Shown: one piece after another, positions 19,861 through 31,874 of the stretch
Layout: every line of letters begins with the position of its first letter
Numbering within the stretch: the first letter of the stretch is position 1
Virus record (IMG/VR): IMGVR_UViG_3300025168_000366
Location: 1-31,874 of that record
Direction: 5' to 3' (one strand)
From: a virus
DNA: 31,874 nucleotides
Notes under the pieces: model-generated
Seen by the model: only the letters and a program-made list of their open reading frames with translations
The model's database searches: none
Told to the model about the DNA's origin: nothing
Translations under genes and position numbers: made by a program

Positions 19861-20264
19861 TATTGGTATGTTATGTATGTGTTACTGTCGTTGTCAGTGT
19901 AAGAAGTTCTAATGGGCTTTAATTCCCCTTTAACGTAAACTTTGCCCCTTTCTATTATTCCACTAGCTAACGCAGGATTTAGATTAAATTGGCTAGATTG
20001 TTGGTAAACATTATATTTATAATAACCGTTTAACTCTAAGTCTATCAATCCTATTGTAGGGTCTGGCGTTCCATTTGTTAAGGTTATGTTAAATTCGTTA
20101 TATCTACAGGCGTTAGTACTTACGTCTTCAGCAGTAAAAAATACACTATTATAACTATCATCGCTTATTATTTCAAATAAGAAATAAGCAGGGGCGGTTA
20201 TAGTTACGTTTTCTGTTAATGTTAGTACAACTTTAGAAGTACTATTTTTATTTAATAACATCAT
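19860..20264 (-). CDS. First late-operon gene, beta-rich virion-region protein
   Basis: This 134-residue protein is rich in Thr, Asn and Tyr, with strand-like stretches (STSKVVLTLTENVTITAPAY, CRYNEFNITLTNGT, GYYKYNVYQQSSQFNL). It has no membrane helix. It is the leader gene of the late operon: the Bacteroidota-type -7 box TAGCTTTG is at 20310-20317 and a CTTATATATT element at 20270-20279. A second ATG follows the first (MMLL), and either could be used. I do not recognise the family; similar proteins are common next to portal in Bacteroidota phages as I recall. Confidence 0.6.
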   Translation of the reverse strand: MMLLNKNSTSKVVLTLTENVTITAPAYFLFEIISDDSYNSVFFTAEDVSTNACRYNEFNITLTNGTPDPTIGLIDLELNGYYKYNVYQQSSQFNLNPALASGIIERGKVYVKGELKPIRTSYTDNDSNTYITYQ

Positions 20265-20269
20265 ACAAC

Positions 20270-20279
20270 AATATATAAG
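20270..20279 (-). promoter_or_regulatory. TTATATATT motif upstream of late genes (representative site)
   Basis: On the minus strand the sequence is CTTATATATT, five bases before the start codon at 20264. Related elements lie before other late genes: 778-789 (gene at 772), 3211-3222 (3190), 9209-9218 (9190), 13152-13164 (13149), 16120-16129 (16109, inside the preceding gene) and 31554-31566 (31549). A weaker version is at 4821-4837. The distance to the start varies from 2 to 20 bases. It may be a late promoter for the phage sigma-like factor or an A/T-rich translation-start element. Similar strings also occur inside genes. Confidence 0.4.
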
Positions 20280-20309
20280 TTAATTTAATACGTTCATTAA
20301 CCAATAAAA

Positions 20310-20341
20310 CAAAGCTAAAATAATATAATATTAACATTCAA
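20310..20341 (-). promoter_or_regulatory. Late operon promoter, TTG-N21-TAGCTTTG
   Basis: On the minus strand a TTG at 20339-20341 and the -7 box TAGCTTTG (20310-20317) are separated by 21 bases. The -7 box matches the Bacteroidota consensus TAnnTTTG exactly. The TTG lies inside the inverted repeat TTCAAGTGAA, so any protein bound there would occlude this promoter. The predicted leader to the start at 20264 is about 40 bases. This would drive the portal-to-tail-tube operon. Confidence 0.6.
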
Positions 20342-20346
20342 GTGAA
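20337..20346. promoter_or_regulatory. Operator-like inverted repeat, site A
   Basis: TTCAAGTGAA is an inverted repeat with one central mismatch between two divergent promoters. The same element in perfect form, TTCAATTGAA, is at 28209-28218, again about 45 bases before a -7 box and within the shared string AACATTCAA(G/T)TGAAC. It is probably bound by a phage or host regulator. The helix-turn-helix-like product of 20824-21150 is one candidate. Confidence 0.5.
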
Positions 20347-20362
20347 CTTTTTTCATTTTATG

Positions 20363-20393
20363 TTTGATTATTACAAATAAATACTTATCTTAG
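20363..20393 (+). promoter_or_regulatory. Early promoter, TTTG-N19-TATCTTAG
   Basis: TTTG at 20363-20366 and TATCTTAG at 20386-20393 are separated by 19 bases, the spacing known for Flavobacterium. One base of the -7 box differs from TAnnTTTG. The start codon of the first early gene (20398) is only four bases after the box, so the transcript would be leaderless or nearly so. This would start transcription of the early operon. Confidence 0.6.
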
Positions 20394-20397
20394 TAAT

Positions 20398-20556
20398 ATG
20401 GAAAACGAAACGACTACTACGAAAGACTGGAAAGATGCACATATTGAAGTGTTAAACGGTTATATCAAAGAGTATCAAATACTTTGCGATAAAAAAGACG
20501 AAATGATTGACGGATTATTAAAAACATTAAACGAAAAAGACAAATGCAAATTTTAG
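20398..20556 (+). CDS. First early gene, 52-residue acidic helical peptide
   Basis: The gene begins ATG GAA AAC GAA directly after the early promoter and ends with TAG at 20554-20556. The protein (MENETTTTKDWKDAHIEVLN, then GYIKEYQILCDKKDEMID and GLLKTLNEKDKCKF) is charged and helical, with two cysteines and no membrane segment. The stop overlaps the start of the next gene (20544), so the two are coupled. Small acidic peptides at the start of phage early operons often act on host functions, but no specific role can be given. Confidence 0.6.
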   Translation: MENETTTTKDWKDAHIEVLNGYIKEYQILCDKKDEMIDGLLKTLNEKDKCKF

Positions 20557-20822
20557 AAAGCTATTACTTAAGCGAAAACGAAACATTATTACTAGATAAT
20601 AATAAAGTGAATTATTTTGTGTGCTATAACCTTATTAGGGAAACTAACTACGGGCAGGGTTTTATAGACTATGACACGCCCCCAGATTATGACGTAACCA
20701 CAACAGAAGTTGAAATGTTAGATTATTATATTTGTGATGATGACTTAAACAACATAGGTAAAGTTTCTAAAAAGGCTTTAAATGAAATAACAGATTATTT
20801 AACAGATATAAACAACTATTAA
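20544..20822 (+). CDS. Early protein of 92 residues, unknown function
   Basis: The protein is acidic and rich in Tyr, Asp and Asn (NLIRETNYGQGFIDYDTPPD, TTEVEMLDYYICDDDLNNIG), ending in helical KVSKKALNEITDYLTDINNY. The cluster of Asp/Glu in the second half could mimic nucleic acid, a known early-phage strategy, but this is only a possibility. It starts inside the previous gene (13-base overlap), and the next gene begins one base after its TAA. Confidence 0.6.
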   Translation: MQILESYYLSENETLLLDNNKVNYFVCYNLIRETNYGQGFIDYDTPPDYDVTTTEVEMLDYYICDDDLNNIGKVSKKALNEITDYLTDINNY

Positions 20823-20823
20823 A

Positions 20824-21150
20824 ATGAAACAGTACAGACAAAAAGATTTTATCCACTTAATAGCTAAGTCTAAAGAGATAACCTTAACAGAATTAGCTAA
20901 ACACTTAAAGCTAGAATTAAGTTCTTTTCGTGTTACTTTAGAAAGGAATAATTTAAAACTAAGTCAGTTTTTAAGTATTTATAAATATATCTATAAAAAA
21001 GAGTTTAAAACAGAAAGCGACTTTTTAGATATAATGAGGGAACTATATAATTTTAGTTTATCGCAATTCGTAGACGCTATGAAAGTAGACGATAACAAAA
21101 AAGTGGTAGTAACTCTCTACAAAAAAACAAAAATACAATTAATAAACTAG
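20824..21150 (+). CDS. Putative helix-turn-helix regulator
   Basis: This 108-residue basic protein has the segment ITLTELAKHLKLELSSFRVT (residues 19-38), followed by LERNNLKLSQFLSIYKYI. It reads like a helix-turn-helix: LTELAKHL, a turn, then LSSFRVTL as recognition helix. A second helical unit follows (KTESDFLDIMRELYNFSLSQ). It is the third early gene, just downstream of the operator-like repeat TTCAAGTGAA, and could bind that repeat to switch between early and late transcription. The DNA-binding call is tentative. Confidence 0.5.
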   Translation: MKQYRQKDFIHLIAKSKEITLTELAKHLKLELSSFRVTLERNNLKLSQFLSIYKYIYKKEFKTESDFLDIMRELYNFSLSQFVDAMKVDDNKKVVVTLYKKTKIQLIN

Positions 21151-21156
21151 TAAAGC

Positions 21157-22392
21157 ATGGGTAAAAAAGTTAAATGGTTAAATAAATCAGAAGCTTATTT
21201 TTTAGGATTAACAGTAAAAGAAGACGCAGAAGGTAGAAAGCAAAATAGGTATAGCATAACAAAAAGCCAATTTAACGAAATATTAAAATTAAGAACTACG
21301 CCCAACAAAAGAGAGTTCATAGAAACTATTAAAAAGCTAGACAAAAACGGTACAATAATTTCTAGCACTGAAAAACTACAAAGCAAACCTATTGAAGTAC
21401 CTGAAAACTTCGAAGTAATAAAAGTAAGCACTTCTAAAACTACGGGGCAACAGTGGATTCAATACGCACCTAAGAAAACAGAAGCTTCTGAAGTGGTTGA
21501 AAGCTTTAACTTTAAAAGTATTATTGAAAAATACATAAAACCTGTAGTATCTCCAAATGTTACGATTAAGTATGTTAATAGTAACAAAAAAGACTTTGAC
21601 AAGTTAATTATTACAGACGTACATACTGCAATGGACACAGACGCAGACAACAACACTATGTATAAAGGGGAATGGAATAAAGAAGAGCTTTTAAAGACTG
21701 CACAGATAGTAATAGATAACACTATTAAAGAGCAAGAAAGCGACATTTTATATATTGACGAATTAGGGGACTTACTAGACGGTTTTAACGCACAAACCAC
21801 AAGGGGGGGGCATGGTTTACCACAAAATATGACTAATGAAAAGGCGTTTGATTGTGCGCTAGAATTTAAGTTAAAAATACTTTACGGCTTAATTGGTAAC
21901 TATAAAGAAATACATTTTAATAATATATGTAACGACAACCACTCAGGGGCTTTTGGGTATTTTGTTAATGAAGCCTTTAAGCAAATAGCAGAAATACAAT
22001 TTAAAAATATTACCGTAACTAATCATAGAAAGTTTATTAACCATTATTTTGTAGATAATATATGTTTTGTTATTACTCACGGAAAAGACGATAAGTCGTT
22101 AAAGTTTGGCTTTAAACCTCATTTAGACTTAAAGGGTGCTGAAAAGATAGACCAATATTTAAAACAAAACGGGGTCTATAAAAAATCGGATTTAATTATA
22201 TTTTGTAAAGGTGATAGCCACCAGGCTTTATTCGACTTATGTACTTCTGACGATTTTTATTATTTCAATTACCCTGCTTTAAGTCCTTCTAGCAACTGGA
22301 TAAAGAACAACTTTAAATTAGGGCGCAGGGGCTTTGTAAATGAGTCTTACAAAGGCTTAAAACATTATCAAAAAATACACTTCATAAAGTAA
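21157..22392 (+). CDS. Calcineurin-like metallophosphoesterase with N-terminal extension
   Basis: This 411-residue protein has a C-terminal metallophosphoesterase core of five blocks in the right order: DVH (154-156), GDLLD (204-208), NDNHSG (259-264), THGKDD and GDSHQA. These parallel the D-x-H, G-D-x-x-D, G-N-H-D/E, H and G-H-x-H motifs that bind two metals. The final block is GDSHQ instead of GHTH, a variation to note. The first 145 residues (MGKKVKWLNKSEAYFLG onwards) form a basic extension with no recognised domain. In phages such enzymes act on nucleotides or DNA ends. It sits before the recombination genes. Confidence 0.7.
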   Translation: MGKKVKWLNKSEAYFLGLTVKEDAEGRKQNRYSITKSQFNEILKLRTTPNKREFIETIKKLDKNGTIISSTEKLQSKPIEVPENFEVIKVSTSKTTGQQWIQYAPKKTEASEVVESFNFKSIIEKYIKPVVSPNVTIKYVNSNKKDFDKLIITDVHTAMDTDADNNTMYKGEWNKEELLKTAQIVIDNTIKEQESDILYIDELGDLLDGFNAQTTRGGHGLPQNMTNEKAFDCALEFKLKILYGLIGNYKEIHFNNICNDNHSGAFGYFVNEAFKQIAEIQFKNITVTNHRKFINHYFVDNICFVITHGKDDKSLKFGFKPHLDLKGAEKIDQYLKQNGVYKKSDLIIFCKGDSHQALFDLCTSDDFYYFNYPALSPSSNWIKNNFKLGRRGFVNESYKGLKHYQKIHFIK

Positions 22393-22473
22393 TAAAAACA
22401 GTTTATTATTTTAATTAACAATAATTAATAAAAAATAAATAGTTCAATCGGTCTTTTTTCAATTATAATTAAC

Positions 22474-22481
22474 TATATTAG
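22474..22481 (+). promoter_or_regulatory. Possible promoter for the recombination genes
   Basis: The 114-base gap before the ERF gene has TATATTAG at 22474-22481, of the same TAnnTTAG form as the early promoter's -7 box. There is no TTG at the expected upstream distance. The gap also has AGTTCAATCGGTC, a half-site resembling the operator arms, and CTTTTTTCA, shared with the early promoter region. The leader (AATTAAAACCAAAAACATG) is A-rich with no Shine-Dalgarno. This is a weak call. Confidence 0.4.
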
Positions 22482-22506
22482 CATTCTAACAATTAAAACC
22501 AAAAAC

Positions 22507-23061
22507 ATGAAAAATTTATTTAAAGCCTTAGCAGGTTTTCAACAGGAAGTGCCAACGATACACCAAGGCACAAAAGGTTATGGCTATACTTATAGCAATC
22601 TTAACACTATTTTTAAAGTAATTAATCCAATATTAAAAAAGTACGATCTAGGATTTACGCAATTAATAGAAGGTACTAGCATTAAAACTATTATTTTCCA
22701 CACTGAAAGTGGTGAGTTTATTACAAGTGTTACAGAGATACCACAAGGCATAATTTTAAAAGGTATGAATACTTATCAGGCCAACGGATCGGGAATAACG
22801 TACTACAGAAGATATTCTTTATCCAGTGCTTTATGTTTAGTGACTGATGTTGATAGCGACGCAACAGGGGAAGAGATTAAAAAGACTAGCAGTGAAATAG
22901 CTGAAGAGTACAACAATAGTATAAAAACGGCTAAGGCTAACTTAAAAGCTTCTAAGGATTTAAACTCATTAGTGAAAGCATGGGGAAGGTTAACAGTAGA
23001 CCAAAAGAATAATAAAGAAGTAACAGAGTTAAAAGATTCATTAAAAGTAAAACATTCTTAA
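22507..23061 (+). CDS. erf: ERF-family single-strand annealing protein
   Basis: This 184-residue protein promotes annealing of complementary single strands in phage recombination and repair. Signatures of the ERF superfamily are YGYTYSNLNTIFKVINPILK near the N-terminus, LGFTQLIEG, and ANGSGITYYRRYSLSSALCL followed by DVDSDATGEE. The C-terminus is helical and polar (EEYNNSIKTAKANLKASKDL). It is followed after one base by the YqaJ exonuclease gene, which gives a complete annealing/exonuclease pair like lambda Red. Confidence 0.88.
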   Translation: MKNLFKALAGFQQEVPTIHQGTKGYGYTYSNLNTIFKVINPILKKYDLGFTQLIEGTSIKTIIFHTESGEFITSVTEIPQGIILKGMNTYQANGSGITYYRRYSLSSALCLVTDVDSDATGEEIKKTSSEIAEEYNNSIKTAKANLKASKDLNSLVKAWGRLTVDQKNNKEVTELKDSLKVKHS

Positions 23062-23062
23062 T

Positions 23063-23725
23063 ATGTATATAGACTACGATTTAAAACAAGGCACTGAAGC
23101 ATGGCACGAAATTAAGAACGGTAAAATTTCGGGGACTAGAGCGAAATCAGTAATGGTTAAAAAAGATATATCTAGTGCCGTTATCTTTGACGAAATAATG
23201 AGCGAAAGAAATACAACTTTTAAACACGTTGAAGGATTCACTAACGACGCAATGAAAAGAGGTATTGAATTAGAGCCGTTAGCTATTAAAGAAGTAACAA
23301 GAAAAACAGGTATTATCTTTTACGAAGCAGGTTTATTAGTGAGAAACGAAAACCACATACATAGTCCTGACGGCATAAGCATGTGCGAAAGAATAGGGTT
23401 AGAAATTAAATGCCCTAGTGCTAAGGTACATAATAGCTATGTAAGGGAAAATAAAATACCATTAGAATATGTTTATCAAGTAGTAAATTACTTTGCAATG
23501 AGTGAAAGTATAGAAAGATTGATATTTGCTTCTTATCATCCAGACTACAATTTAAAGCCTTTGTTTTTATTAGAAATAAATAGACAAAGCGTTATATTTA
23601 CAAGTAAAAAAGACAGTGATACAATAGAAAATCTAGTACAAACCTTAAATAAAAACGTAGATAATTTAATAAATGAAATAGAGAAAGAAGAGGAATTAAT
23701 TAAACAATCAAATAACAAATTTTAA
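23063..23725 (+). CDS. YqaJ-family recombination exonuclease
   Basis: This 220-residue PD-(D/E)XK enzyme is the partner of the ERF protein. It opens QGTEAWHEIKNGKISGT (9-25), then GIELEPLAIKE (67-77), HSPDG (Asp103), LEIKCPS (Glu114, Lys116) and VYQVVNYF (Gln139). These are the lambda-exonuclease-like catalytic positions. The core is intact, and the C-terminal Lys/Asn-rich tail (KQSNNKF) overlaps a 33-34 base sequence that is repeated before the next two genes. Confidence 0.87.
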   Translation: MYIDYDLKQGTEAWHEIKNGKISGTRAKSVMVKKDISSAVIFDEIMSERNTTFKHVEGFTNDAMKRGIELEPLAIKEVTRKTGIIFYEAGLLVRNENHIHSPDGISMCERIGLEIKCPSAKVHNSYVRENKIPLEYVYQVVNYFAMSESIERLIFASYHPDYNLKPLFLLEINRQSVIFTSKKDSDTIENLVQTLNKNVDNLINEIEKEEELIKQSNNKF

Positions 23726-23739
23726 AACCAAAAATTATG
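23706..23739 (+). repeat. Duplicated gene leader, copy 1
   Basis: The segment from AATCAAATAACAAATTTT to the start codon of the 23737 gene recurs almost exactly at 23984-24016 before the SSB-like gene (one A fewer in the A run). Here the first half encodes the last residues and stop of the YqaJ gene (SNNKF), and the second half is the A-rich leader. It could serve as a translation leader and marks a recent duplication or insertion. Confidence 0.8.
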
Positions 23740-23985
23740 CATCATTTACTAGAGAAAATAAATATATTAAGAGGTAAAAGTGTTTTTACAGTTGAAGACT
23801 TCATTAAAGTATTAAATAAATTAGACCCTGAATGCGAAGTGATATTTGGCGTTTATAACGGTAATTCGACTTGCTTTAGTCAAGACGATAATTTAATATT
23901 TAACTTAGACCAAAACGATAGAGAACACGAAGCAGAAGGGAAATACGTAGTTCAAATAATAACAGCTAATAAAAACAACTTTTAA
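23737..23985 (+). CDS. Early protein of 82 residues, unknown function
   Basis: The protein is acidic. It shows an N-terminal helix (MHHLLEKINILRGKSVFTVE), then FIKVLNKLDPECEVIFGVYN, then Asp/Asn-rich NLDQNDREHEAEGKYVVQII. The compact LDPECEVIFGVYNG turn resembles small phage proteins of the DUF6225-like style, though I cannot confirm this. It is bracketed by two copies of the same leader sequence, and the second copy also repeats the tail of the YqaJ gene. It therefore looks like a gene inserted between recombinase and SSB. Confidence 0.55.
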   Translation: MHHLLEKINILRGKSVFTVEDFIKVLNKLDPECEVIFGVYNGNSTCFSQDDNLIFNLDQNDREHEAEGKYVVQIITANKNNF

Positions 23986-24016
23986 TCAAATAACAAATTT
24001 TAAAACCAAAATTATG
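23984..24016 (+). repeat. Duplicated gene leader, copy 2
   Basis: This is the second copy of the leader described at 23706-23739. It follows the stop of the 82-residue gene and precedes the SSB-like gene. In this copy the bases TCAAATAACAAATTTTAA are non-coding, yet they are identical to the coding end of the YqaJ gene. That makes the repeat a scar and not a simple shared ribosome-binding signal. Confidence 0.8.
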
Positions 24017-24370
24017 AATACTTTACAATTTACGGGAACGATTGACACGATCAAAGAAACGCAACAAATTAGCGATACATTTTCTAAAAGAGAATTCGTG
24101 CTTACTGACAAAAACGACAAGTACCCAAAATTTATAGCGTTTGAATTAGTAAAAGATAACTGCGTGTTATTAGACGAATTTAAAATAGGTGAAGAAATAA
24201 CAGTTAATTTTAACCTAGAGGGGCGCAAGTGGACAAACCCAAAGACTAACGAAGAAAGAACTTTCAACACTCTTAAAGTTTGGAAAATTGAACAAGGCGG
24301 AAATAACGCCAAGTTCAAACCAACAATAGAAGAAAGCAAACCTAACGTTACTTCTGACTTACCATTTTAA
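24014..24370 (+). CDS. SSB-like OB-fold protein (DUF3127 type)
   Basis: This 118-residue protein has an OB-fold-like body (NTLQFTGTIDTIKETQQISD, FSKREFVLTDKNDKYPKFIA, IGEEITVNFNLEGRKWTNPK). Its C-terminal tail is flexible and ends SDLPF, the tip by which bacterial SSBs recruit partner proteins. The length and ending fit the DUF3127 family of Bacteroidota phages and bacteria. It would coat single-stranded DNA during replication and recombination. The helicase at 26698-27690 ends in the similar EELPF. Confidence 0.8.
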   Translation: MNTLQFTGTIDTIKETQQISDTFSKREFVLTDKNDKYPKFIAFELVKDNCVLLDEFKIGEEITVNFNLEGRKWTNPKTNEERTFNTLKVWKIEQGGNNAKFKPTIEESKPNVTSDLPF

Positions 24371-24423
24371 TAATTACTAACTAGGGGTTGACTGTGCAGG
24401 TTGACCCCTTTAAAAAAAACATC

Positions 24424-24855
24424 ATGGAAAATAAATTTTTTAATATCAAAATAAAGTACTTAAAACAACTAGAAGACCAGTCTATAAAAAAAGTATCTGA
24501 ACAATATGTTTTAAAAGCTTATTCTTTTACAGACGCAGAAGCAAAAATAGTTAAGAACTTAGAAAACATTATACCTGAATTTAATATTACTTCATGCAAT
24601 CCTTTTAACATTCAAGACGTAAGATTTGACAAGTCTAGAGAAAACTTTTTTAAAGTTAAAATAGCTTATGAAAACGTAGATATTGATACAGGTAAAACAA
24701 AAAAGATAATAGAGAACTATATAGTACAAGGGGACGAAATAAAAGACGTTACAAACTCAACTAATCAATTGTTAAATGGGTGTACTATGGACTACACTAT
24801 TGAAAACGTACAGTTAACCAAAATTAAAAACGTTTTTTATGAAGTAAGTAAATAA
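24424..24855 (+). CDS. DUF4494-like protein
   Basis: The 143-residue form starts MENKFFNIKIKYLKQLEDQS. The frame is open 12 codons upstream, but MTVQVDPFKKNI looks like a non-coding leader (the A-rich AAAAAAAACATC stretch), so the inner ATG is chosen. The features VSEQYVLKAYSFTDAEAKIV, FFKVKIAYENVDIDTGKTKK and the late NYIVQGDEIKDVTNSTNQLL follow the DUF4494 pattern, a family confined mostly to Bacteroidota. Its function is unknown. It is in the replication block, 53 bases after the SSB-like gene. Confidence 0.7.
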   Translation: MENKFFNIKIKYLKQLEDQSIKKVSEQYVLKAYSFTDAEAKIVKNLENIIPEFNITSCNPFNIQDVRFDKSRENFFKVKIAYENVDIDTGKTKKIIENYIVQGDEIKDVTNSTNQLLNGCTMDYTIENVQLTKIKNVFYEVSK

Positions 24856-24858
24856 AAA

Positions 24859-24935
24859 GCCCACAAAAGCCCACAAAAGCCCCTAAAACCACTAAAACCA
24901 CTAAAACCACTTTTTAAACCACTAAAACCACTTTT
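24859..24935 (+). repeat. Iteron-like direct repeats in the DUF4494 / zinc-ribbon gap
   Basis: Two GCCCACAAAA units (24859-24878), one GCCCCTAAAA (24879-24888), then CCACTAAAA at 24889, 24898 and 24919 with CCACTTTT variants at 24907 and 24928. The unit is 9-10 bases and the array fills almost the whole 86-base gap between stop and start. It may bind a replication initiator or be a regulatory leader. Replication slippage could also create it. Confidence 0.75.
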
Positions 24936-24941
24936 AAAAAA

Positions 24942-25415
24942 ATGGAATATTTACAGAAAGTTTGTCCTTGTTGTAATGATGTATTTCAAACAACAAAAAG
25001 CAATAAAAAGTACTGTGATTCAGTTTGTAAGAATAGACACGCGCCAACATTAAGAGAAAGCGCAGAACCTAAATTCAAGGACTTTGTACAATATAACACA
25101 GAAAACAACATAAGCCCTTTACCTGGTGATTGTGTAAGGTTAACACGTGATTATGAAAATTTAAAGTCTGATACTTTAGGAATTATAACAGGAATAGTAG
25201 CAGAAAAAAAAGAAGAGTACGAAATAACATTCAATTCTATTTTACCGCCTTATATAAACGTAAATAAAGCACTTAAATGCGAAGGGGGTACTACATTAAA
25301 GATTAAAAAAAATAACCTTTTACACGTTGGTAAAATAAATATGCTTTTTTGTTACCCAGACCGTAAAAAAGCAGACGACTTATTTTTAGTTAATAATTAT
25401 AAGGTACTTCTTTAA
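24942..25415 (+). CDS. Zinc-ribbon protein, unknown function
   Basis: This 157-residue protein has an N-terminal zinc-finger-like motif, VCPCCNDVFQTTKSNKKYCD then SVCKNRH, with Cys pairs at about 8/11 (CPCC) and 25/29 (CDSVC), resembling the DUF2116-like zinc ribbons. The rest is a mixed alpha/beta domain (LPGDCVRLTRDYENLKSDTL, IITGIVAEKKEEYEITF) that looks like a small SH3-like or KOW-type fold, and ends in FLVNNYKVLL. It begins right after the iteron-like array. A DNA- or RNA-binding role is possible, but no family was confirmed. Confidence 0.55.
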   Translation: MEYLQKVCPCCNDVFQTTKSNKKYCDSVCKNRHAPTLRESAEPKFKDFVQYNTENNISPLPGDCVRLTRDYENLKSDTLGIITGIVAEKKEEYEITFNSILPPYINVNKALKCEGGTTLKIKKNNLLHVGKINMLFCYPDRKKADDLFLVNNYKVLL

Positions 25416-25708
25416 TGACTACTAGGGAAAATTATACACTGCAAAAAGTAAACGATATTGAACAACAAATTTTAATTTATTTAACTACTAACCACGAAAA
25501 ACACGAAATAATAACAGAAGACACTAGCGACTTTCTAGAATTTGAAATACAGTACTTTATGATTGAGCGCGAAACCATAACCGTAAACCTCAATTTCTAC
25601 CGTAACGACGACACCGAAAGCGCACCGATTTGGCTTTATAGGAAGCAACTAGTAATTAATGAAAAAGAGTTAATAGAGCGTTTAGAGGTGTTAACTTCCT
25701 ATGAATAA
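25415..25708 (+). CDS. Early protein of 97 residues, unknown function
   Basis: The start overlaps the previous stop by one base (TAATG). The protein is acidic and rich in Glu and Thr: MTTRENYTLQKVNDIEQQIL, then FLEFEIQYFMIERETITVNL, then NFYRNDDTESAPIWLYRKQL, ending with a helix (KELIERLEVLTSYE). No cysteine pair, no membrane helix, and no recognised domain. It is the last gene before the repeat-rich gap that precedes the replication initiator. Confidence 0.55.
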   Translation: MTTRENYTLQKVNDIEQQILIYLTTNHEKHEIITEDTSDFLEFEIQYFMIERETITVNLNFYRNDDTESAPIWLYRKQLVINEKELIERLEVLTSYE

Positions 25709-25726
25709 GGCTTTTATATAGTATTT

Positions 25727-25848
25727 AACGTTTTTAACGTTTGTTAAATTCGTTGCAACGTTTTCAACTGTTATAGTAATAGTAATAGTAATAGTAATAG
25801 TAATAGTAATAGTAATATATAAATATAAATACGCATTTTAAAAAATGC
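25727..25848. other. Candidate replication origin
   Basis: The 181-base gap before the initiator-like gene holds three AACGTT sites (25727, 25736 and 25757), the 10-base palindrome CGTTGCAACG (25751-25760), seven exact TAGTAA hexamers (25774-25815), an A/T-only stretch, and the palindrome GCATTTTAAAAAATGC (25833-25848). Repeats plus an easily melted A/T tract next to an initiator gene is the layout of many phage and plasmid origins. This is inferred from arrangement only. Confidence 0.45.
25774..25815 (+). repeat. Perfect hexanucleotide tandem repeat TAGTAA x7
   Basis: Seven exact copies of TAGTAA follow one another at 25774-25815. The array lies upstream of the initiator-like gene and does not encode protein, because TAG and TAA are both stops in one frame. 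It may be a melting element or a hypervariable microsatellite whose copy number changes by slippage. Confidence 0.9.
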
Positions 25849-25889
25849 TGAGTATTTTTAAATTAACTTTATAAACCAAAAAAATAAAA

Positions 25890-26705
25890 ATGGCATTAGA
25901 CAAAAGTGGTTTTATTTTACATAAAAACCTTCTAGAAGTTTTAGAAAATATACCAAACGAAAAAGCAGGGGAGTTGTTCAAACATATTTTAAGATACGTT
26001 AACGACTTAGACCCACAAACAGACGATTTAATATTAAAATGCTTATTTATACCCATAAAACAAAGGTTAAAAGCAGACCTGGACAAGTGGACAAGTAAAA
26101 AAGAAGGCTTTTCGAAAGCAGGGTTAAGGTCTGCAGAAGTTAGAAGAGAAAAGAAAGCTTTATCTACTACCCCAATAAAACAAAGCACTGGAAAGATTGA
26201 ACAATTTGAGAAGTTTTGGGAAGTTTACAATAAAAAGATCGACAAAAAAAGGTGTTTAATTAAATGGTTGAAATTAAAAGAATCTGATATTAAAAAAATA
26301 TTTGAAACACTAGAAAACTATGTTAAATTAAACGATAATATACAATTTAGAAAGAACCCCGTAACCTATCTAAATAACTATTCATGGAATGACGAAATAA
26401 CACCAATTAAAAAAAATAACGCCTTAAATACTACCGATAAAGTAATAAATTTATTCGATAATACAGACTTAACTAGCACTGTAAAAAAGTACAAAAGCAG
26501 TAAAGAACGACTTAAAGAAAGGTTAACTGAATTTCTAGAAAAAGAAGTAATTAAAGCAGGTTTTAAGAATAGACAAACCCCTGAAGTCTTAACCCATTTT
26601 ATCAATAGTTTAGAATTTAATCGCCCCGTAATAGTTAAAAACATTGACCCAAACGCAAAAGCCCCGTGGGTGATTTATGCAGAAAAACACAATCAAAATG
26701 ACTGA
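25890..26705 (+). CDS. Replication initiation protein-like (DUF6291 N-domain, DnaD-like C-part)
   Basis: The protein has 271 residues. The N-terminal part is FILHKNLLEVLENIPNEKAG, then LFKHILRYVNDLDP and FIPIKQRLKADLDKW, matching the DUF6291 type often found in Bacteroidota phage replication proteins. The middle carries EQFEKFWEVYNKKIDKKRC, then a Trp-containing helix, and the signature RKNPVTYLNNYSWNDE, where YLN..W is typical of phage initiator C-domains. It would bind the origin and load the helicase encoded next. The overlap with that gene is 8 bases if the inner ATG is used. The origin-like repeats lie just upstream. Confidence 0.7.
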   Translation: MALDKSGFILHKNLLEVLENIPNEKAGELFKHILRYVNDLDPQTDDLILKCLFIPIKQRLKADLDKWTSKKEGFSKAGLRSAEVRREKKALSTTPIKQSTGKIEQFEKFWEVYNKKIDKKRCLIKWLKLKESDIKKIFETLENYVKLNDNIQFRKNPVTYLNNYSWNDEITPIKKNNALNTTDKVINLFDNTDLTSTVKKYKSSKERLKERLTEFLEKEVIKAGFKNRQTPEVLTHFINSLEFNRPVIVKNIDPNAKAPWVIYAEKHNQND

Positions 26706-27690
26706 AATAATAAACCCAATGTTAACCCCTTCAGATGCACTTTTGGAACTTGACGACATTAGATTAAACAGGGTAGAAAAAGGCTACACTATTGGAAATG
26801 AGAAATTTGACGAACATATAGTTTTTAAACGGGGACAGTTTAACATGGTCAACGGGCATGATAATGTAGGAAAAACAGATGTTATTTTATGGTACTTCGT
26901 TTGTTTAGCTAAAAAACATAACATGAAGTTTAACATTTACAGTTCAGAGAATACGCACAGAAGTCAAGTATTTAAACTCTTTAACTTTTGGACTGGTAAA
27001 AGATTAGATAAAGACTTCACGAAAGACACTAGAGGTTTTCATAATACTTTAAATGAACTTACAGACTGTTTTAACTTCATTAGAGCCGATAAAAGATATA
27101 GCGCGAATCAAATACTAGACATTGCAACTAATAACCCTGCAGACGGTCTTTTAATTGACCCGTTCAACAGTTTAATGACTGAGTCAGGGAATAAGCACCA
27201 AGAAGATTACGACACTTGCGCAAATATTAGAATCTTTTGCGATAGCACTAAAACAACCACTTTTGTAAATGCCCATTTAGTTACACAGTCAGCGCGAAAC
27301 GTGTACGGGAAAGAAAGCGAATTCGAAGGAAATTTAAGACCTGGAGAAAAAGCAGACACAGAAGGGGGGCAAAAGTTTGCGAATCGGTCAGATGACTTTT
27401 GGACTGTCCACAGAATGACACAACACCCTGAACATTGGAGCCGTACAGAATTACACGTCAGAAAAGTTAAAGAAACTATAACGGGGGGAAGTTGTACCTT
27501 GAGAGATAGTCCGATTTATATGGACTGGGAAAATCATTGCAAATATACTATTAACGGAAAAAACCCACTAGCTAAACACTATAACGAAATTGGAAACACT
27601 GACAAAAGCAACCTAGCAGAATTAACACCACAACACAAAGCACTCAAAAAAATGTCTTACGGTGCAGAAACTGAAGAATTACCTTTTTAA
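26698..27690 (+). CDS. DnaB-type replicative helicase (RecA-like ATPase)
   Basis: The 330-residue form starts at MTEIINPMLTPSDALLELDD. An upstream in-frame ATG at 26677 adds only MQKNTIK and lies further inside the previous gene, so the inner start is preferred. Walker A is GHDNVGKT (53-60), Walker B is LLIDP (151-155). The domain is the RecA-like core of DnaB helicases, without the N-terminal primase-binding domain, so it is about two thirds the length of a full DnaB. It ends in EELPF, like an SSB tip. It follows the initiator-like gene. Confidence 0.75.
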   Translation: MTEIINPMLTPSDALLELDDIRLNRVEKGYTIGNEKFDEHIVFKRGQFNMVNGHDNVGKTDVILWYFVCLAKKHNMKFNIYSSENTHRSQVFKLFNFWTGKRLDKDFTKDTRGFHNTLNELTDCFNFIRADKRYSANQILDIATNNPADGLLIDPFNSLMTESGNKHQEDYDTCANIRIFCDSTKTTTFVNAHLVTQSARNVYGKESEFEGNLRPGEKADTEGGQKFANRSDDFWTVHRMTQHPEHWSRTELHVRKVKETITGGSCTLRDSPIYMDWENHCKYTINGKNPLAKHYNEIGNTDKSNLAELTPQHKALKKMSYGAETEELPF

Positions 27691-27699
27691 AATAAAACT

Positions 27700-28044
27700 A
27701 TGAAAACCGAAACTAAAAACAATTCAAAACTAGTAAAATTATATAAACAAACTAAAGACGCACTGTCAAACGACGTTGTAACGTGTTTTAAGACCGATTT
27801 AAGCTCGATTCATGCTTCTTTGGTATACTTACACCAACTGTTCAAAAAGAAAGGCTTAGAGAACGACGCAAGCAAGTTAGTAGAAAAAGGATTAGAAGAT
27901 ATGTCTTCCTGGTTTGCTTATTACGACATTTTAAGGTTTGAACTAATCAATTACAGAGAACACAACAAAGCTTTAAAAATAGAACTGGATAGGTTAAGAA
28001 CTGAAAACCTTTTATTAAAGCAAGATAATGAGCTTAATAAGTGA
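27700..28044 (+). CDS. Coiled-coil protein, unknown function
   Basis: The protein has 114 residues, mainly helical, beginning MKTETKNNSKLVKLYKQTKD. The C-terminal third is a leucine-heptad coiled coil (LKIELDRLRTENLLLKQDNE). A tryptophan-containing loop (EDMSSWFAYYDILRF) sits in the middle. It shares GTGA with the next small gene. It could be an accessory of the replication complex, since it directly follows the helicase, but nothing in the sequence shows this. Confidence 0.6.
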   Translation: MKTETKNNSKLVKLYKQTKDALSNDVVTCFKTDLSSIHASLVYLHQLFKKKGLENDASKLVEKGLEDMSSWFAYYDILRFELINYREHNKALKIELDRLRTENLLLKQDNELNK

Positions 28045-28202
28045 TTCACTTATCTTTATTTCCAAACACTAAATGCGTAATTTGTAGTAAAAAAGTAAAT
28101 AATAACGCTTTGCATTGTAAAAAATGTTATAAAAAATTTATTAAATTATGCGAGCCTAAACCCAATGATATCAACGACTTGCAGGATTATTGTAAAGAAT
28201 GA
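28041..28202 (+). CDS. Zinc-knuckle mini-protein, GTG start
   Basis: A 53-residue gene is tucked against the previous one, starting GTG at 28041 (overlapping TGA, as GTGA) and ending TGA at 28200-28202. It reads VIHLSLFPNTKCVICSKKVN, then NALHCKKCYKKFIKLCEP. Two CxxC pairs (CVIC and CKKC) 11 residues apart make a compact zinc-binding unit. There is a stop just before the GTG and no ATG in frame until far downstream, so the GTG start is the best reading. It could bind nucleic acid or protein. Confidence 0.6.
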   Translation: MIHLSLFPNTKCVICSKKVNNNALHCKKCYKKFIKLCEPKPNDINDLQDYCKE

Positions 28203-28206
28203 ATAA

Positions 28207-28266
28207 CATTCAATTGAACTTTTTTTAAAAATAGATTAGGAAAAGACAAATAAAGGCTTATCTTTG
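28207..28266 (+). promoter_or_regulatory. Second early-type promoter with perfect operator repeat (site B)
   Basis: TTCAATTGAA (perfect inverted repeat, 28209-28218) is followed about 45 bases later by the -7 box TATCTTTG (28259-28266), an exact TAnnTTTG. TTAG at 28236-28239 stands 19 bases before the box in the -33 position. The first early promoter has TTTG at the same distance and TATCTTAG. The two promoters share ACAAATAAA just before the -7 box and CTTATCTT across it. This drives the membrane peptide and probably the methyltransferase cassette. Confidence 0.65.
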
Positions 28267-28290
28267 TAAGGAACGCAAAAACAAAACAAT

Positions 28291-28386
28291 ATGAAAACTA
28301 AAGAAGAACAAGAAAGAAACCACAGACTAATAGCGCAGTTATTATTTGGTGTATCGGTAATGTATTTTTTATTTAGTAATATCTAA
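28291..28386 (+). CDS. Small membrane peptide of 31 residues
   Basis: The gene starts 24 bases after the -7 box TATCTTTG and ends with TAA at 28384-28386. It encodes MKTKEEQERNHRLIAQLLFG then VSVMYFLFSNI. The charged N-terminus followed by one hydrophobic helix (residues 13-31) is a single-pass membrane peptide. Its stop codon lies inside the ATCTAAC attC-like core site, as in typical integron cassettes. The function is unknown; a toxin-like or membrane-modifying peptide is possible. Confidence 0.5.
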   Translation: MKTKEEQERNHRLIAQLLFGVSVMYFLFSNI

Positions 28387-28476
28387 CGTTTTGTGTATGG
28401 TAAAGTTTTGTCGCAAATATAGCATAAATATGCGACAAAGTTTAATAACAAAACTTTACTATACACTTTGTTATGT
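28381..28476 (+). mobile_element. Long attC-like palindrome, site 0
   Basis: ATCTAAC (28381-28387, RYYYAAC form) and GTTATGT (28470-28476) frame a long double hairpin. The outer arms GTGTATGGTAAAGTTTTG (28393-28410) and CAAAACTTTACTATACAC (28449-28466) pair over 18 bases with one G-T. The inner arms TTGTCGCA (28408-28415) and TGCGACAA (28431-28438) pair perfectly. Length and layout resemble a large attC site, but the right core deviates from GTTRRRY. Confidence 0.55.
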
Positions 28477-28511
28477 GCAGTTTGATTGCTTGATGGTGTT
28501 GGCTAAATTAC

Positions 28512-28563
28512 ACCTAACGGTTAGTGTAAGAGGCGTTTTAATGCCTTTTACACCTTGTTAGGC
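28512..28563 (+). mobile_element. attC-like site, site 1 (upstream of methyltransferase)
   Basis: ACCTAAC (28512-28518) and GTTAGGC (28557-28563) both fit the integron core consensus RYYYAAC and GTTRRRY and are almost complementary. Between them, GTGTAAGAGGC and GCCTTTTACAC pair over 11 bases (one G-T) around the loop GTTTTAAT. The total is 52 bases, just under the length usually quoted for attC sites. It lies just before the methyltransferase start. It is read as the recombination site left upstream of an inserted cassette. Confidence 0.6.
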
Positions 28564-28581
28564 ACTTTTAATTTATATGAT

Positions 28582-29208
28582 ATGAAGATAACAAACGAAG
28601 ATAATATGGAATTAATGGCAAGGTATGAAGATAACCACTTTGATTTAGCCATAGTTGACCCACCTTACGGAATAAATATGTCTATGGGGCATAAAGGAAG
28701 TGAGAAAAGAGGTGATAAGAATAAATACAAAAACTTTGCTGGTAACGATAACCAAACACCACCTCAAGAGTATTGGGATGAGTTGTTTAGGGTAAGTAAA
28801 AACCAAATAGTATGGGGTGGCAATTATATGATGGAATACTTGAAATCATCACCTTGTTTTTTAATATGGGATAAGGTACAGCCAGAAGATTTTACAATGG
28901 CAATGGCTGAGTTTGCTTGGACTAGCTTTAAATCACCTGCTAAAATTTATCAAAAAAGAGTTGTTGGAGCAGACCCAGACGGAAGAATACACCCAACACA
29001 AAAACCAATTAAATTGTATGAATGGACTTTGGATAAATATGCAGAAGAAGGTAATAAAATACTAGATACTCATTTAGGAAGTGGTAGTATTGCGATAGCC
29101 TGCCATAATAGAAAGTTTGATTTAACGGCTTGTGAACTTGATAAAGAGTATTACGACAAAGCAATGAAAAGACTAAAAGAACATATGGCACAGCAAAGGT
29201 TATTTTAA
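28582..29208 (+). CDS. DNA methyltransferase in an attC-flanked cassette
   Basis: The 208-residue form starts at MKITNEDNMELMARYEDNHF; the open frame reaches back to a TTG at 28555, but that part is the attC-like site. Motif IV is DPPYGI (26-31) and motif I is DTHLGSGSIAIA (162-173), the beta order, with HPTQKPIKLYEW before motif I. It would modify the phage or host DNA. Aspartate codons are GAT 12 to GAC 4 by hand count, against 9 to 14 in the nearby helicase gene, which is a sign of separate origin. The other methyltransferase (15121-15855) is only distantly alike. Both carry intact motifs. Confidence 0.85.
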   Translation: MKITNEDNMELMARYEDNHFDLAIVDPPYGINMSMGHKGSEKRGDKNKYKNFAGNDNQTPPQEYWDELFRVSKNQIVWGGNYMMEYLKSSPCFLIWDKVQPEDFTMAMAEFAWTSFKSPAKIYQKRVVGADPDGRIHPTQKPIKLYEWTLDKYAEEGNKILDTHLGSGSIAIACHNRKFDLTACELDKEYYDKAMKRLKEHMAQQRLF

Positions 29209-29212
29209 TTGT

Positions 29213-29264
29213 GCCTAACACCAAAGTAAAAGCCCGTTTTAATGGCTTTTAAAGACTGTTAAAA
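29213..29264 (+). mobile_element. attC-like site, site 2 (downstream of methyltransferase)
   Basis: GCCTAAC (29213-29219) begins four bases after the gene's stop. TAAAAGCC and GGCTTTTA (29227-29234 and 29244-29251) pair around the loop CGTTTTAAT. GTTAAAA (29258-29264) is the right core, one base off GTTRRRY. Its left core is the exact complement of the GTTAGGC upstream of the gene. That is what a circularised cassette would predict, since its own 5' end would complete the downstream site. Confidence 0.55.
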
Positions 29265-29281
29265 CACGTTTTAATGTGTTT
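29262..29281 (+). repeat. Third hairpin with the GTTTTAAT loop
   Basis: AAACAC (29262-29267) and GTGTTT (29276-29281) pair around GTTTTAAT (29268-29275), the loop found in attC-like sites 1 and 2. It follows immediately after site 2 and may be the remains of another site. Confidence 0.6.
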
Positions 29282-29317
29282 ACTTAAAGTATTAAAGAAG
29301 CAAGTTAAATCAGAGGG

Positions 29318-29347
29318 GCATCGGTGCGAGTGTATCGGTGCTTTTTT
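29318..29347 (+). terminator. Intrinsic terminator of the plus-strand (early) transcripts
   Basis: A 24-base hairpin (29318-29341) forms 10 base pairs, three of them G-U, around the loop GAGT, followed by T6 (29342-29347). The G-U pairs only work in plus-strand RNA, so the direction is clear. It ends the early and cassette transcription. Confidence 0.75.
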
Positions 29348-29353
29348 GTGCAT

Positions 29354-29387
29354 AAAAAAAGGGTTAACAACTAAGCTAACCCCTTTT
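29354..29387 (-). terminator. Intrinsic terminator of the minus-strand (late) operon
   Basis: On the minus strand GGGGTTA (29383-29377) and TAACCC (29366-29361) pair and are followed by T7 (29360-29354). It lies just beyond the tail tube gene and faces the plus-strand terminator. Confidence 0.75.
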
Positions 29388-29405
29388 AAATACTGTTGAA
29401 CTATT

Positions 29406-29918
29406 TTAAGACACTGAAAGAGTATCAAAAGCCGTTTGGGACATTTGTCTTGCTGGTGCGCTTTCTTTACCTTCAAAAGATACAGTAGACCCGTTTAAGT
29501 CCCCGTAAGCCTTACCAGCCCCAACTGTTGAAGCCGTTAAGTCTGCACCGTTAGACTCACCAACTACCCAATAAAGATTGTTCTGATCTTTAACGATAAT
29601 TAAAAGCGTTGACTGTGCTAGTACTTTTAATATGTTTCTATTTGTTGCGTCGTTCTTAGTGAATACCAAACTCACCATTTGCGACCAAAAATTAGTTCCA
29701 TTCTCTACTGAATGATTACCCGTTTGAGTAAATTCCCCTTGTTCGTTTCTCTGTGCAAAAGTAAAAAAGTTACCCCCTGAAGTAACGGTATCAATGATAT
29801 CGTCAGAGTCATAAGTGTAAGTTGTTGCGCTTGAAAACGAAGCTATATACGCTTCCTTAATTCCCCCTAAAGAGTCCTTGCAACCTAGTGCAATTCCACT
29901 TGCTAAAATACATGACAT
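29406..29918 (-). CDS. Major tail tube protein
   Basis: This 170-residue protein stacks in rings to form the tail tube. It starts MSCILASGIALGCKDSLGGI and is Thr/Ser/Asn-rich with alternating strands (AYIASFSSATTYTYDSDD, FFTFAQRNEQGEFTQTG, LIIVKDQNNLYWVVGESNG). It then has STVSFEGKESAPARQM. The size and beta-rich layout are those of tail tube proteins in Bacteroidota siphoviruses. It is the last gene of the late operon, after the capsid gene with a terminator-like hairpin in between, and before the operon terminator. A head decoration protein is a less likely alternative. Confidence 0.75.
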   Translation of the reverse strand: MSCILASGIALGCKDSLGGIKEAYIASFSSATTYTYDSDDIIDTVTSGGNFFTFAQRNEQGEFTQTGNHSVENGTNFWSQMVSLVFTKNDATNRNILKVLAQSTLLIIVKDQNNLYWVVGESNGADLTASTVGAGKAYGDLNGSTVSFEGKESAPARQMSQTAFDTLSVS

Positions 29919-30002: not shown

Positions 30003-30935
30003 TTAAGGTACTAAAGTAAATTCTACTACTAACTCAGGAAAAGCAACCTGAACACCTAGTTTGAATTTAGATATGAAACGTACTTCGTCATTATCTTGAG
30101 AATAAAAAATACTGAAGTCTTCAGCATCATTTAACATATCAACCCCTACATAAAGATTTGCAATTCGCGAAAGGATTAATCTGTTAGTTCCGTTCAATCC
30201 TTTTACTGCTACAACTTTTACGTTTGTACCTGGAACCATTTGCATAAAGTCGCCCCCTTGATTTTCTGCACCTGTATAAGCGAACAAATTAGCATCTCTT
30301 AAAGCTTTTGCATAAGTTCTGTACTTGTCATAACCTACATATAAAACTAAGTCTTCTGCGTCTATAATGTCAGCAGGTACAGAAGAAACTATACCGTCAA
30401 TGATATCTACAACGTTAGCCGAAGTTATACCCGTTGCAACAGTTACCCCGTCAACGTTTCCATCTACTGCAGAAACACCGTCGATTACTTTTAAAAGACC
30501 GTCTGCAAGTGCTAAATTTCCTGAACCTGTAGTGTCCCCTTTCCATAAGATCGTCTCGATCATATCGGAAATTTTGTCTGCTTTGTCTTCTGCAAAAATT
30601 TGTTCGAATGGTATGTTCTCATTGTAAGAACCTGCATTCATCATTTTTTGAGTGTAGTAACTTTCTAAAGTATTAACACAAATAGATTCATTTACTTTAA
30701 TAGGTGCTACCGATAAAGTTCTCTGAGTTAATGCAGTTGTTCCACTAGAACTAAAACCACAAGCCCCCGCCTGGCCTACTAAAGTAGAATCAATAATATT
30801 GATAGTTGCACTAGATTTAATATCTGGTTGGATAGTTACATATTCTAAAGTTCTACCTTCTAGGATTGATTTCTTAATCAAGTCCATTTTGTTCTCGTCA
30901 GTATATACCGACAGTCCGCTTACGTCTAAAGCCAT
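30003..30935 (-). CDS. Major capsid protein (HK97 fold)
   Basis: The protein has 310 residues. An N-terminal arm (MALDVSGLSVYTDENKMDLI) is followed by SATINIIDSTLVGQAGACGF, then a helical spine region (EQIFAEDKADKISDMIETIL), a Gly/Val-rich domain, and C-terminal FSIFYSQDNDEVRFISKFKL then GVQVAFPELVVEFTLVP. This is the pattern and size of HK97-like capsid proteins in small siphoviruses. The protease and scaffold-like genes lie directly before it in transcription order, which supports the call. It lies near the 3' end of the late operon, which is unusual. Confidence 0.85.
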   Translation of the reverse strand: MALDVSGLSVYTDENKMDLIKKSILEGRTLEYVTIQPDIKSSATINIIDSTLVGQAGACGFSSSGTTALTQRTLSVAPIKVNESICVNTLESYYTQKMMNAGSYNENIPFEQIFAEDKADKISDMIETILWKGDTTGSGNLALADGLLKVIDGVSAVDGNVDGVTVATGITSANVVDIIDGIVSSVPADIIDAEDLVLYVGYDKYRTYAKALRDANLFAYTGAENQGGDFMQMVPGTNVKVVAVKGLNGTNRLILSRIANLYVGVDMLNDAEDFSIFYSQDNDEVRFISKFKLGVQVAFPELVVEFTLVP

Positions 30936-30967: not shown

Positions 30968-31549
30968 TTATTTTCTCTTTGATAAAAATTTTAATTTTTC
31001 ATCTCTAGAATTTGCCTTCTTTTGTTTTGCACTTACTGTTTTGCTTAGTTTTATTTCTTCTTCAGCTGGTTGATTTGCTATAGTAGAAACTACTTTACTA
31101 AGTTCATCGATTGCAGACATAGATTCTGCGATGTTAGAATTAGCTAATTCAATAGCCTCTAGTCTAGACATTAAAGATTCTGCCCATTTTGGTAAAGCTT
31201 CAGACATTTCTTCTTCTACAACTTCTTCTTCTTCTTCTTTTGGTGCTTCCTCTTCTGCTTCAACGATAGAAACTATTACACCTTCAGCGTCTAAAGTAAC
31301 TACTTTACCTTCTACACTATACTCACCCTCAACGGCAGGGGCAACAGTTTCTACACCTTCCTCGTCGACGCTAACTATCTCCACTTTTTCGCCTTCTATC
31401 ATTCCAGCTTCAGCAGTTCTTAAGATAATGCCGTCTTCAGTTGTAACGTCTGCGAACTCTACTTCTGCAGGCTTGTCTTTTAAAACTATTTCTTTCTCTT
31501 CATCTGAGAACATAGCCTTAATATTTTCTATAAATTTGCTTCTATCCAT
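30968..31549 (-). CDS. Scaffold-like acidic protein
   Basis: The protein has 193 residues. The first part is MDRSKFIENIKAMFSDEEKE then beta-like SVEGKVVTLDAEGVIVSIVE. A strongly acidic run (EEEEEVVEEEMSEALPKWAE) comes next, followed by a coiled-coil (SRLEAIELANSNIAESMSAI) and a basic tail (KQKKANSRDEKLKFLSKRK). Acidic middle, coiled coil and basic C-terminus are typical of scaffold proteins, whose basic end touches the capsid. It lies between the protease and the capsid gene. Its first 30 codons are repeated at 1-90. Confidence 0.75.
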   Translation of the reverse strand: MDRSKFIENIKAMFSDEEKEIVLKDKPAEVEFADVTTEDGIILRTAEAGMIEGEKVEIVSVDEEGVETVAPAVEGEYSVEGKVVTLDAEGVIVSIVEAEEEAPKEEEEEVVEEEMSEALPKWAESLMSRLEAIELANSNIAESMSAIDELSKVVSTIANQPAEEEIKLSKTVSAKQKKANSRDEKLKFLSKRK

Positions 31550-31874
31550 AACTTTATATATATAAGTGTTTTACTTGTTCCATTTTGTTATAATTCAGAC
31601 ACTATAATGTTTATTTTGTCGTACATTTCAGAGTCTGTTAAGTCTTTATCGTTTACTATTTTTTCAATAATTTCTAAAGCGTTTTCTTCTGACATCTTAA
31701 CTATGTTTTTAGAAAATACGCCCTCTATAGAAAAGCCGTTAACTTCACCTTTTTTTACCTTTTCCCAAAGTTCCTCATTATCAACTTTATAAGATACAAA
31801 CCAACTCCCTTCAGCTACATTTAAAAAGCCTAAAGCGTTTGACTTGTCATTGCTAGGGTCTTTAACTATCCACG
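31460..31874. repeat. Terminal overlap, right copy
   Basis: This is the second copy of 1-414. It contains the scaffold start, the TTATATATATA element and the 3' part of the protease gene in a variant form. See the left copy for the alignment. The two copies differ at codons that change five residues, so the difference is in the DNA and is not only noise. Confidence 0.9.
31588..31874 (-). CDS. XkdF-like protease, 3' fragment in a variant copy
   Basis: These 95 C-terminal codons of the protease end at TAA 31588-31590. The copy reads LWEKVKKGEVNGFSIEGVFS and SEENALEIIEKI, where the other copy has LWAKVKNGEVSGF and SEEKTLEI. The final residues are NIIVSEL instead of NILVSEL. The motif GFSIEG is kept. 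The gene's start is outside the window on this side, so it is a fragment caused by the overlap of the window's ends. Confidence 0.85.
   Translation of the reverse strand, partial: WIVKDPSNDKSNALGFLNVAEGSWFVSYKVDNEELWEKVKKGEVNGFSIEGVFSKNIVKMSEENALEIIEKIVNDKDLTDSEMYDKINIIVSEL

Follow-up and report, generated by a model that had tools for sequence, protein, structure and literature searches.

A probable integron-type methyltransferase cassette within a cluster of attC sites in a phage genome

Ordinary integrons place the gene ahead of its attC site (R'' TAACAA... body ...CGTTA R'), and complementary cassette ends are a hallmark of the system. The gene-then-attC order was seen in the Shewanella array and in an array from a Bacteroidota chromosome (G056). 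An earlier note on the locus described here had called integron cassettes in phages rarely reported. This claim of novelty has to be qualified, since attC clusters (CALINs) and methyltransferase (MTase) cassettes in phages had already been published by Qi et al. 2023 (PMC9892861). According to the same paper, one attC site of P12002L, a lytic Bacteroidota phage, was recombined by IntI1 on the bottom strand only. Here we describe a locus that we interpret, with high confidence, as a phage-borne CALIN (an integron attC cluster without its own integrase) carrying a DNA methyltransferase cassette, for which we propose exchange by a host-supplied recombinase. This reading draws on the sites, the unit boundaries, the polarity, the payload bias and a pair of occupied and empty sites among relatives of the system, as they stand in the sequences compared.

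The stretch of DNA analysed (the window) is an IMG/VR virus record of 31,874 bases. Its ends, 1-414 and 31460-31874, repeat each other at 96.6% identity (last 415 versus first 414 bases), which makes it probable that the genome is terminally redundant and nearly complete; the phage is a virus of aquatic bacteria. The cassette block begins at a 31-codon ORF on the + strand (28291-28386), whose stop codon TAA opens the TAAC of the first site. Small homologous ORFs stop at the equivalent place ahead of other genes in three other contigs (L153, L151 and L164). The first site, attC1 (28381-28476), has its canonical attC orientation on the - strand; read on the + strand, R'' is ATCTAAC and R' is GTTATGT. 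Its body and a further 38 bp form a unit without an ORF (28387-28517, + strand), which is bounded by TAAC at 28384 and 28515 and has nearly complementary ends (GTTATGTG / CACCTAAC, 7/8). The second site, attC2 (28512-28563, - strand; ACCTAAC at 28512-28518 and GTTAGGC at 28557-28563), is the attC of the MTase cassette and lies 5' of the MTase gene (28582-29208, + strand, 208 aa). It is followed after the gene by attC3 (29213-29264, - strand; GCCTAAC at 29213-29219 and GTTAAAA at 29258-29264), a resident or next site. A small terminator-like hairpin, CACGTTTTAATGTG (29265-29281, + strand), forms the right edge; it is kept in L153 and has one pair changed in L151. To the right lie convergent structural-side genes, the nearest at 29406-29918 on the - strand. 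All of the core boxes that the earlier note had placed upstream and downstream of the MTase are present, and the two flanking sites exist as described; the third, longer site directly upstream, attC1, had been missed. The early region of the window also contains a 44-bp direct repeat (23706-23749 and 23984-24026, 91% identical).

Compared with the consensus RYYYAAC/GTTRRRY, both boxes of attC2 fit, and attC1 and attC3 each have one box one base off, in agreement with the fit noted earlier for the two flanking sites. The hairpins of attC2 and attC3 share the loop GTTTTAAT, again as had been noted. On the - strand, fold z-scores relative to dinucleotide shuffles were -4.2, -3.0 and -1.5 for attC1, attC2 and attC3, respectively, and attC3 is consequently weak as a fold. 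An imperfect hairpin with paired R, an unpaired spacer and paired L is present in attC1 and attC2. The attC2 fold has no bulged base and attC1 has no clear extrahelical bulge either; the strand asymmetry of the two sites stems from a G.T pair, not from an extrahelical base.

The cassette-start core GTTAGGCAC (28557-28565, + strand) is the exact complement of the cassette-end core GTGCCTAAC (29211-29219, + strand). The complementarity between the downstream left core and GTTAGGC that had been pointed out before is thus longer than was stated, at 9 nt exact and 14/16 across the longer arms. It is the sole GTTRRRYNN...closing 9-mer pair 150-1500 nt apart on the + strand of the window, and the single such pair on the - strand is the same pair in reverse reading. 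Of the 56 distinct sites compared, 36 are followed downstream by an exact complement to their 8-mer; when the keys were reshuffled 500 times, the average was 1.4 and the highest count was 6. In phage cassette ends a conserved ATTR-like stretch often comes just ahead of four variable bases and the TAAC, and the stop codon is nearby or overlaps.

A pattern derived from attC1 and attC2 (TAACGNNTNGTGTANR...TACACNTTGTTA) matched 55 stretches in IMG/VR, among which a few hairpin bodies recur ahead of many different genes. Covariance model R1 was built on 32 sites from other phage contigs, leaving the window out, and its top two matches in the window were attC2 (68 bits) and attC1 (49.7 bits, E 1e-9, filters off). 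A second model, R2, was built on 13 attC ends from Shewanella prophage M16-3, which has an annotated integron integrase and array; the ends were first trimmed to their conserved outer parts. The earlier note had named an attC covariance-model search as a check on its claim; the best match of R2 in the whole window was attC2, on the - strand, with E 5e-4 (next place, E 0.2). R2 gave only E 0.24 for attC1 and left attC3 unmatched in the window, and attC3 is weak under both models. In 48 other loci R2 yielded 19 matches up to E 1, all of which coincide with R1 sites. By this outside, Shewanella-derived standard the attC identity of the sites is upheld at the level of sequence models; attC3 is backed by junctions in other contigs, not by its fold. 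An Rfam search returned chance matches and no matching family, and DNA searches of a phage collection with attC2 and of plasmids with a related hairpin gave no match.

We also compared the boundaries of the unit among phages. The window and the phage contig L105 match at 121 of 126 positions, counted from the attC2 TAAC into the MTase gene; the sequences are unrelated upstream of that TAAC and diverge immediately after GTGCC/TAAC at the other end (the slash marks the boundary here and below). The mobile unit is therefore about 28518-29218 on the + strand, consisting of the attC2 body and the MTase gene and ending at TAA/C, with TAAC at both boundaries. The mobility suggested by the earlier note stands, and the extent of the cassette has to be redrawn: it comprises attC2 and the gene and extends to the TAAC at 29216-29219, and attC3 is the resident or next site. 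The middle of the MTase gene has diverged between window and L105, with 64% protein identity overall. The attC3 body follows the MTase gene in the window, an exonuclease-like gene in the relative L153, whose neighbouring protein is 91% identical, and a third gene in L164; the junction is always TAAC.

Beside the cassettes, the lytic Polaribacter phages P12002L and P12002S have a 5-kb stretch in common at 99.7% identity. The empty site in P12002L reads ...TTGCAGG/TAACGTTTGG, and the occupied site in P12002S reads ...TTGCAGG/TAAC-body-GTTACCTGG-MTase-TTGTTGC/TAACGTTTGG, which makes a clean occupied/empty pair for an MTase cassette. The remaining block boundaries in these two phages lie at TAAC, CAAC or GAAC, and [TC]AACG occurs at 0.2% of positions in the region. 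The integron-type cassette that had been suggested from the window is thus supported by the R2 model, by closure over the 56 sites, by the L105 unit and by gain or loss in P12002L/S. Among the observations that the earlier note had set against its own reading was that all relatives would carry the gene, with unchanged flanks, at fixed positions; this was looked for and did not occur. No empty site of the window's own block was found among the relatives examined. In three relatives (L154, L156 and L157) the structural genes are directly joined and the window's 9-kb early region (20264-29406) is located elsewhere or rearranged; these are uninformative on the empty site because the whole region is absent there.

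In Synechococcus phage S-CBS2 (L165 3997-4963), a dcm gene of 32% G+C with the same 55-bp hairpin lies between flanks of 44-45% G+C, inserted at the TAA-C of a stop codon. S-CBS2 is a cultured cyanophage, and since it carries a cassette with the same hairpin, the cassette pool may pass between phages of distant hosts. Two further observations concern other loci. In P12002L the same 68-bp element (AACGGATAAAACAAGTTTTACCAAAC...; L162 about 29172-29239 and 37200-37268) directly follows two different cassettes. The P12002L element may be a resident site resembling attI, and short elements similar to it trail cassettes in L121 and L124. An unrelated viral contig (L009 57-840) carries a second MTase cassette with GTTATACG...CGTATAAC ends, a different hairpin body and the same 5' polarity.

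The canonical polarity, gene plus downstream attC, was assumed at first and was overturned by L105, P12002L/S and model R2. The order of the phage unit is TAACG...body...TTGTTA-gene-TAAC, with the attC body 5' of the gene, opposite to chromosomal integrons; this placement follows from the unit boundaries in window/L105, P12002L/P12002S and S-CBS2. R2, which gives the canonical orientation, and R1 lie on opposite strands in 19/19 sites, 18 of the 19 being in phage or viral loci. In 28 of 31 phage sites the gene strand forms the more stable hairpin; in 11 of 13 Shewanella sites the bottom strand does. Among closed phage cassettes that hold an ORF, the orientation of the ORF relative to the site is identical in 54 of 55, and in Bacteroidota chromosomes it is the opposite in about 15 of 17 readable sites (counted by eye from a table). 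The difference is significant by Fisher's test (p about 2e-12), for sequences that are partly non-independent and with the chromosomal count made by eye. Structural asymmetry determines which attC strand gets used (PMC2727003), and the gene strand is therefore predicted to recombine in the phage sites. Since the polarity is unlike that of chromosomal arrays, the phage pool is not simply borrowed from those arrays.

These junctions and this polarity bear on the possibility that the unit is a true integron cassette that is inert in the phage, having been built in a host integron and spread by homologous or illegitimate recombination, routes suggested by Qi et al. (PMC9892861). Such a history would agree with the fact that no phage integrase was found, and the conserved attC bodies could act as short homologies. 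However, the junctions of P12002L/S, of window/L105 and of the contigs with the attC3 body lie at the crossover position, where just 4-5 bases are shared, and the phage polarity differs from that of chromosomal arrays. We regard an inert cassette as unlikely, though deserving of some weight.

No integrase was found in the window, as the earlier note had said, or in any viral locus fetched. A tblastn search with two Bacteroidota recombinases found no relative across viral loci totalling 1.2 Mb, the window among them, and the G056 integrase used as a query against IMG/VR found none in a scan that reaches close relatives only. The block is a CALIN, an attC cluster without an integrase: attC1 and attC2 lie within 0.2 kb, attC3 is 0.7 kb further on and no homologue of the XerA/IntI-like recombinases was found in the window. 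It is not a complete integron, which would have adjacent intI and attI, and tblastn found no such recombinase in the window.

R1 sites are also present in 28 of 395 Bacteroidia genomes. In two of these genomes, G056 and G277, a XerA/IntI-like recombinase oriented as the cassettes is no further than about 1.5 kb from the sites. The G056 and G277 recombinases score 224 and 228 bits with TIGR02249 (IntI) against a cut-off of 265, matching in two separate stretches, and exceed the cut-off of NF040815 ('site-specific tyrosine recombinase/integron integrase'). R1 sites occurred in 9 of 19 neighbourhoods of XerA/IntI-like genes and in none of 19 control regions taken from those genomes; the genomes were preselected for R1 sites, so the test supports co-location, not prevalence. 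Arrays of the same family next to such a recombinase were observed at L196 9609-12121 (G056), L197 117-2678 (G277), L215, L217, L219, L222 and L224. We propose the Bacteroidota XerA/IntI-like family as the likely helper for the phage sites. A TIGR02249 search of the 395 genomes gave one full-length match, G147, which was set aside; it lies on a short locus without a clear attC array.

The recombinase neighbours also bear on whether another hairpin-based mobile system, IS200/IS605- or REP-like or using an unknown phage recombinase, has ends that are merely attC-like. The 5' position of the body, the absence of an integrase and the lack of a clear extrahelical base are what such a system might show. 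We nevertheless consider it improbable: the Shewanella model finds the sites, always on the expected opposite strand; the same sites adjoin XerA/IntI-like recombinases in chromosomes; no transposase appeared in the fetched annotations or searches; and complementary cassette ends typify integrons. That the sites are ordinary intergenic terminator hairpins with chance core-like ends is hardly credible. In its favour, the bodies are terminator-like in an A+T-rich genome, the MTase gene converges with structural genes and attC3 is weak; it is opposed by R1 E-values of 5e-14 and 1e-9, an R2 E of 5e-4, closure of 36/56 versus 1.4 and exact unit boundaries.

The window MTase matches PF01555 at 1.7e-14 and PHROG 67 at 5e-37 and has DPPYGI ... 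LGSGS motifs. Its closest homologues in other phages (71-85% identity) are mostly without cassette packaging, and the packaging is therefore a trait of the window's lineage rather than of the MTase gene; in Muminvirus MTase clusters no R1 sites were found. Among 47 sampled phage cassette ORFs there were 15 N6_N4_Mtase, 4 C5-methylase, 4 Mom, 2 D12 and 1 MT-A70 matches, where one protein may count under more than one family. DNA-modification enzymes make up about half of the 47 sampled cassettes. A swappable pool of modification enzymes would fit evasion of host restriction.

In the phage CALIN that we propose, the recombinase, the single-strand chemistry and the anti-restriction benefit would come together as follows. 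During infection, the strand of an attC site that codes for the gene would become single-stranded and fold. A tyrosine recombinase, provided by the host or by another element and with the Bacteroidota XerA/IntI-like recombinase as the best candidate, would then join the folded attC to a TAAC (complement G/TTA) that belongs either to another site or to a stop codon. In this way a unit made up of attC body and gene, ending at TAA/C, could be gained, lost or swapped, and its product may methylate the phage DNA, with plausible protection from host restriction. We put forward more tentatively, and as rather less than an even chance, that phages of aquatic Bacteroidota, together with at least one cyanophage, have a common pool of reversed-attC DNA-modification cassettes of their own, exchanged between lytic phages by a host XerA-like recombinase that is not a classical IntI; if true, phages would in effect have an integron cassette system of their own alongside that of chromosomes. 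A widespread cassette pool seems to be traded among phages, probably as a disguise of their DNA. Phage-borne attC sites thus move from a curiosity to a plausible working system, given lytic phages that differ by exact gain or loss of a cassette, a payload heavy in DNA modification and the same hairpin across phages of unrelated hosts. The reversed polarity gives a clear prediction, namely that the gene strand should recombine. Searches that require the IntI signature would probably miss the non-IntI recombinase beside these sites in Bacteroidota chromosomes.

Of the described systems, the CALIN of P12002L (NC_028924) resembles the window in having attC sites of the same family (R1 matches at 30004, 38031, 38875 and others) and MTase cassettes without an integrase. 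The main text of PMC9892861 notes 'divergent directions'; it does not describe the 5'-attC arrangement, and contains neither the P12002L/P12002S occupied-empty comparison nor the wider metagenomic phage family. In the open-access PMC literature we found no report of the reversed 5'-attC polarity in phages, of the P12002L/S comparison or the S-CBS2 cassette, or of the breadth of the family in IMG/VR or a recombinase beside the same sites. Orphan phage MTases (PF01555, PHROG 67) belong to the same protein family and have the same presumed anti-restriction role as the window MTase, but most close homologues, unlike it, have no flanking attC. Chromosomal integrons (Shewanella M16-3, Bacteroidota G056 and G277) share the R''/R' cores, the spacers, the end complementarity and one ORF per cassette; there R'' (TAACAA..) comes after the gene and the attC body is on the gene's 3' side, whereas in the phage cassettes the body is 5'. 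Phage CALINs and MTase cassettes, together with IntI1 activity on a P12002L site, were thus known; what appears to be new is the reversed polarity, the comparison of P12002L with P12002S, the cassette of S-CBS2, the spread of the family through IMG/VR and the recombinase that neighbours its sites.
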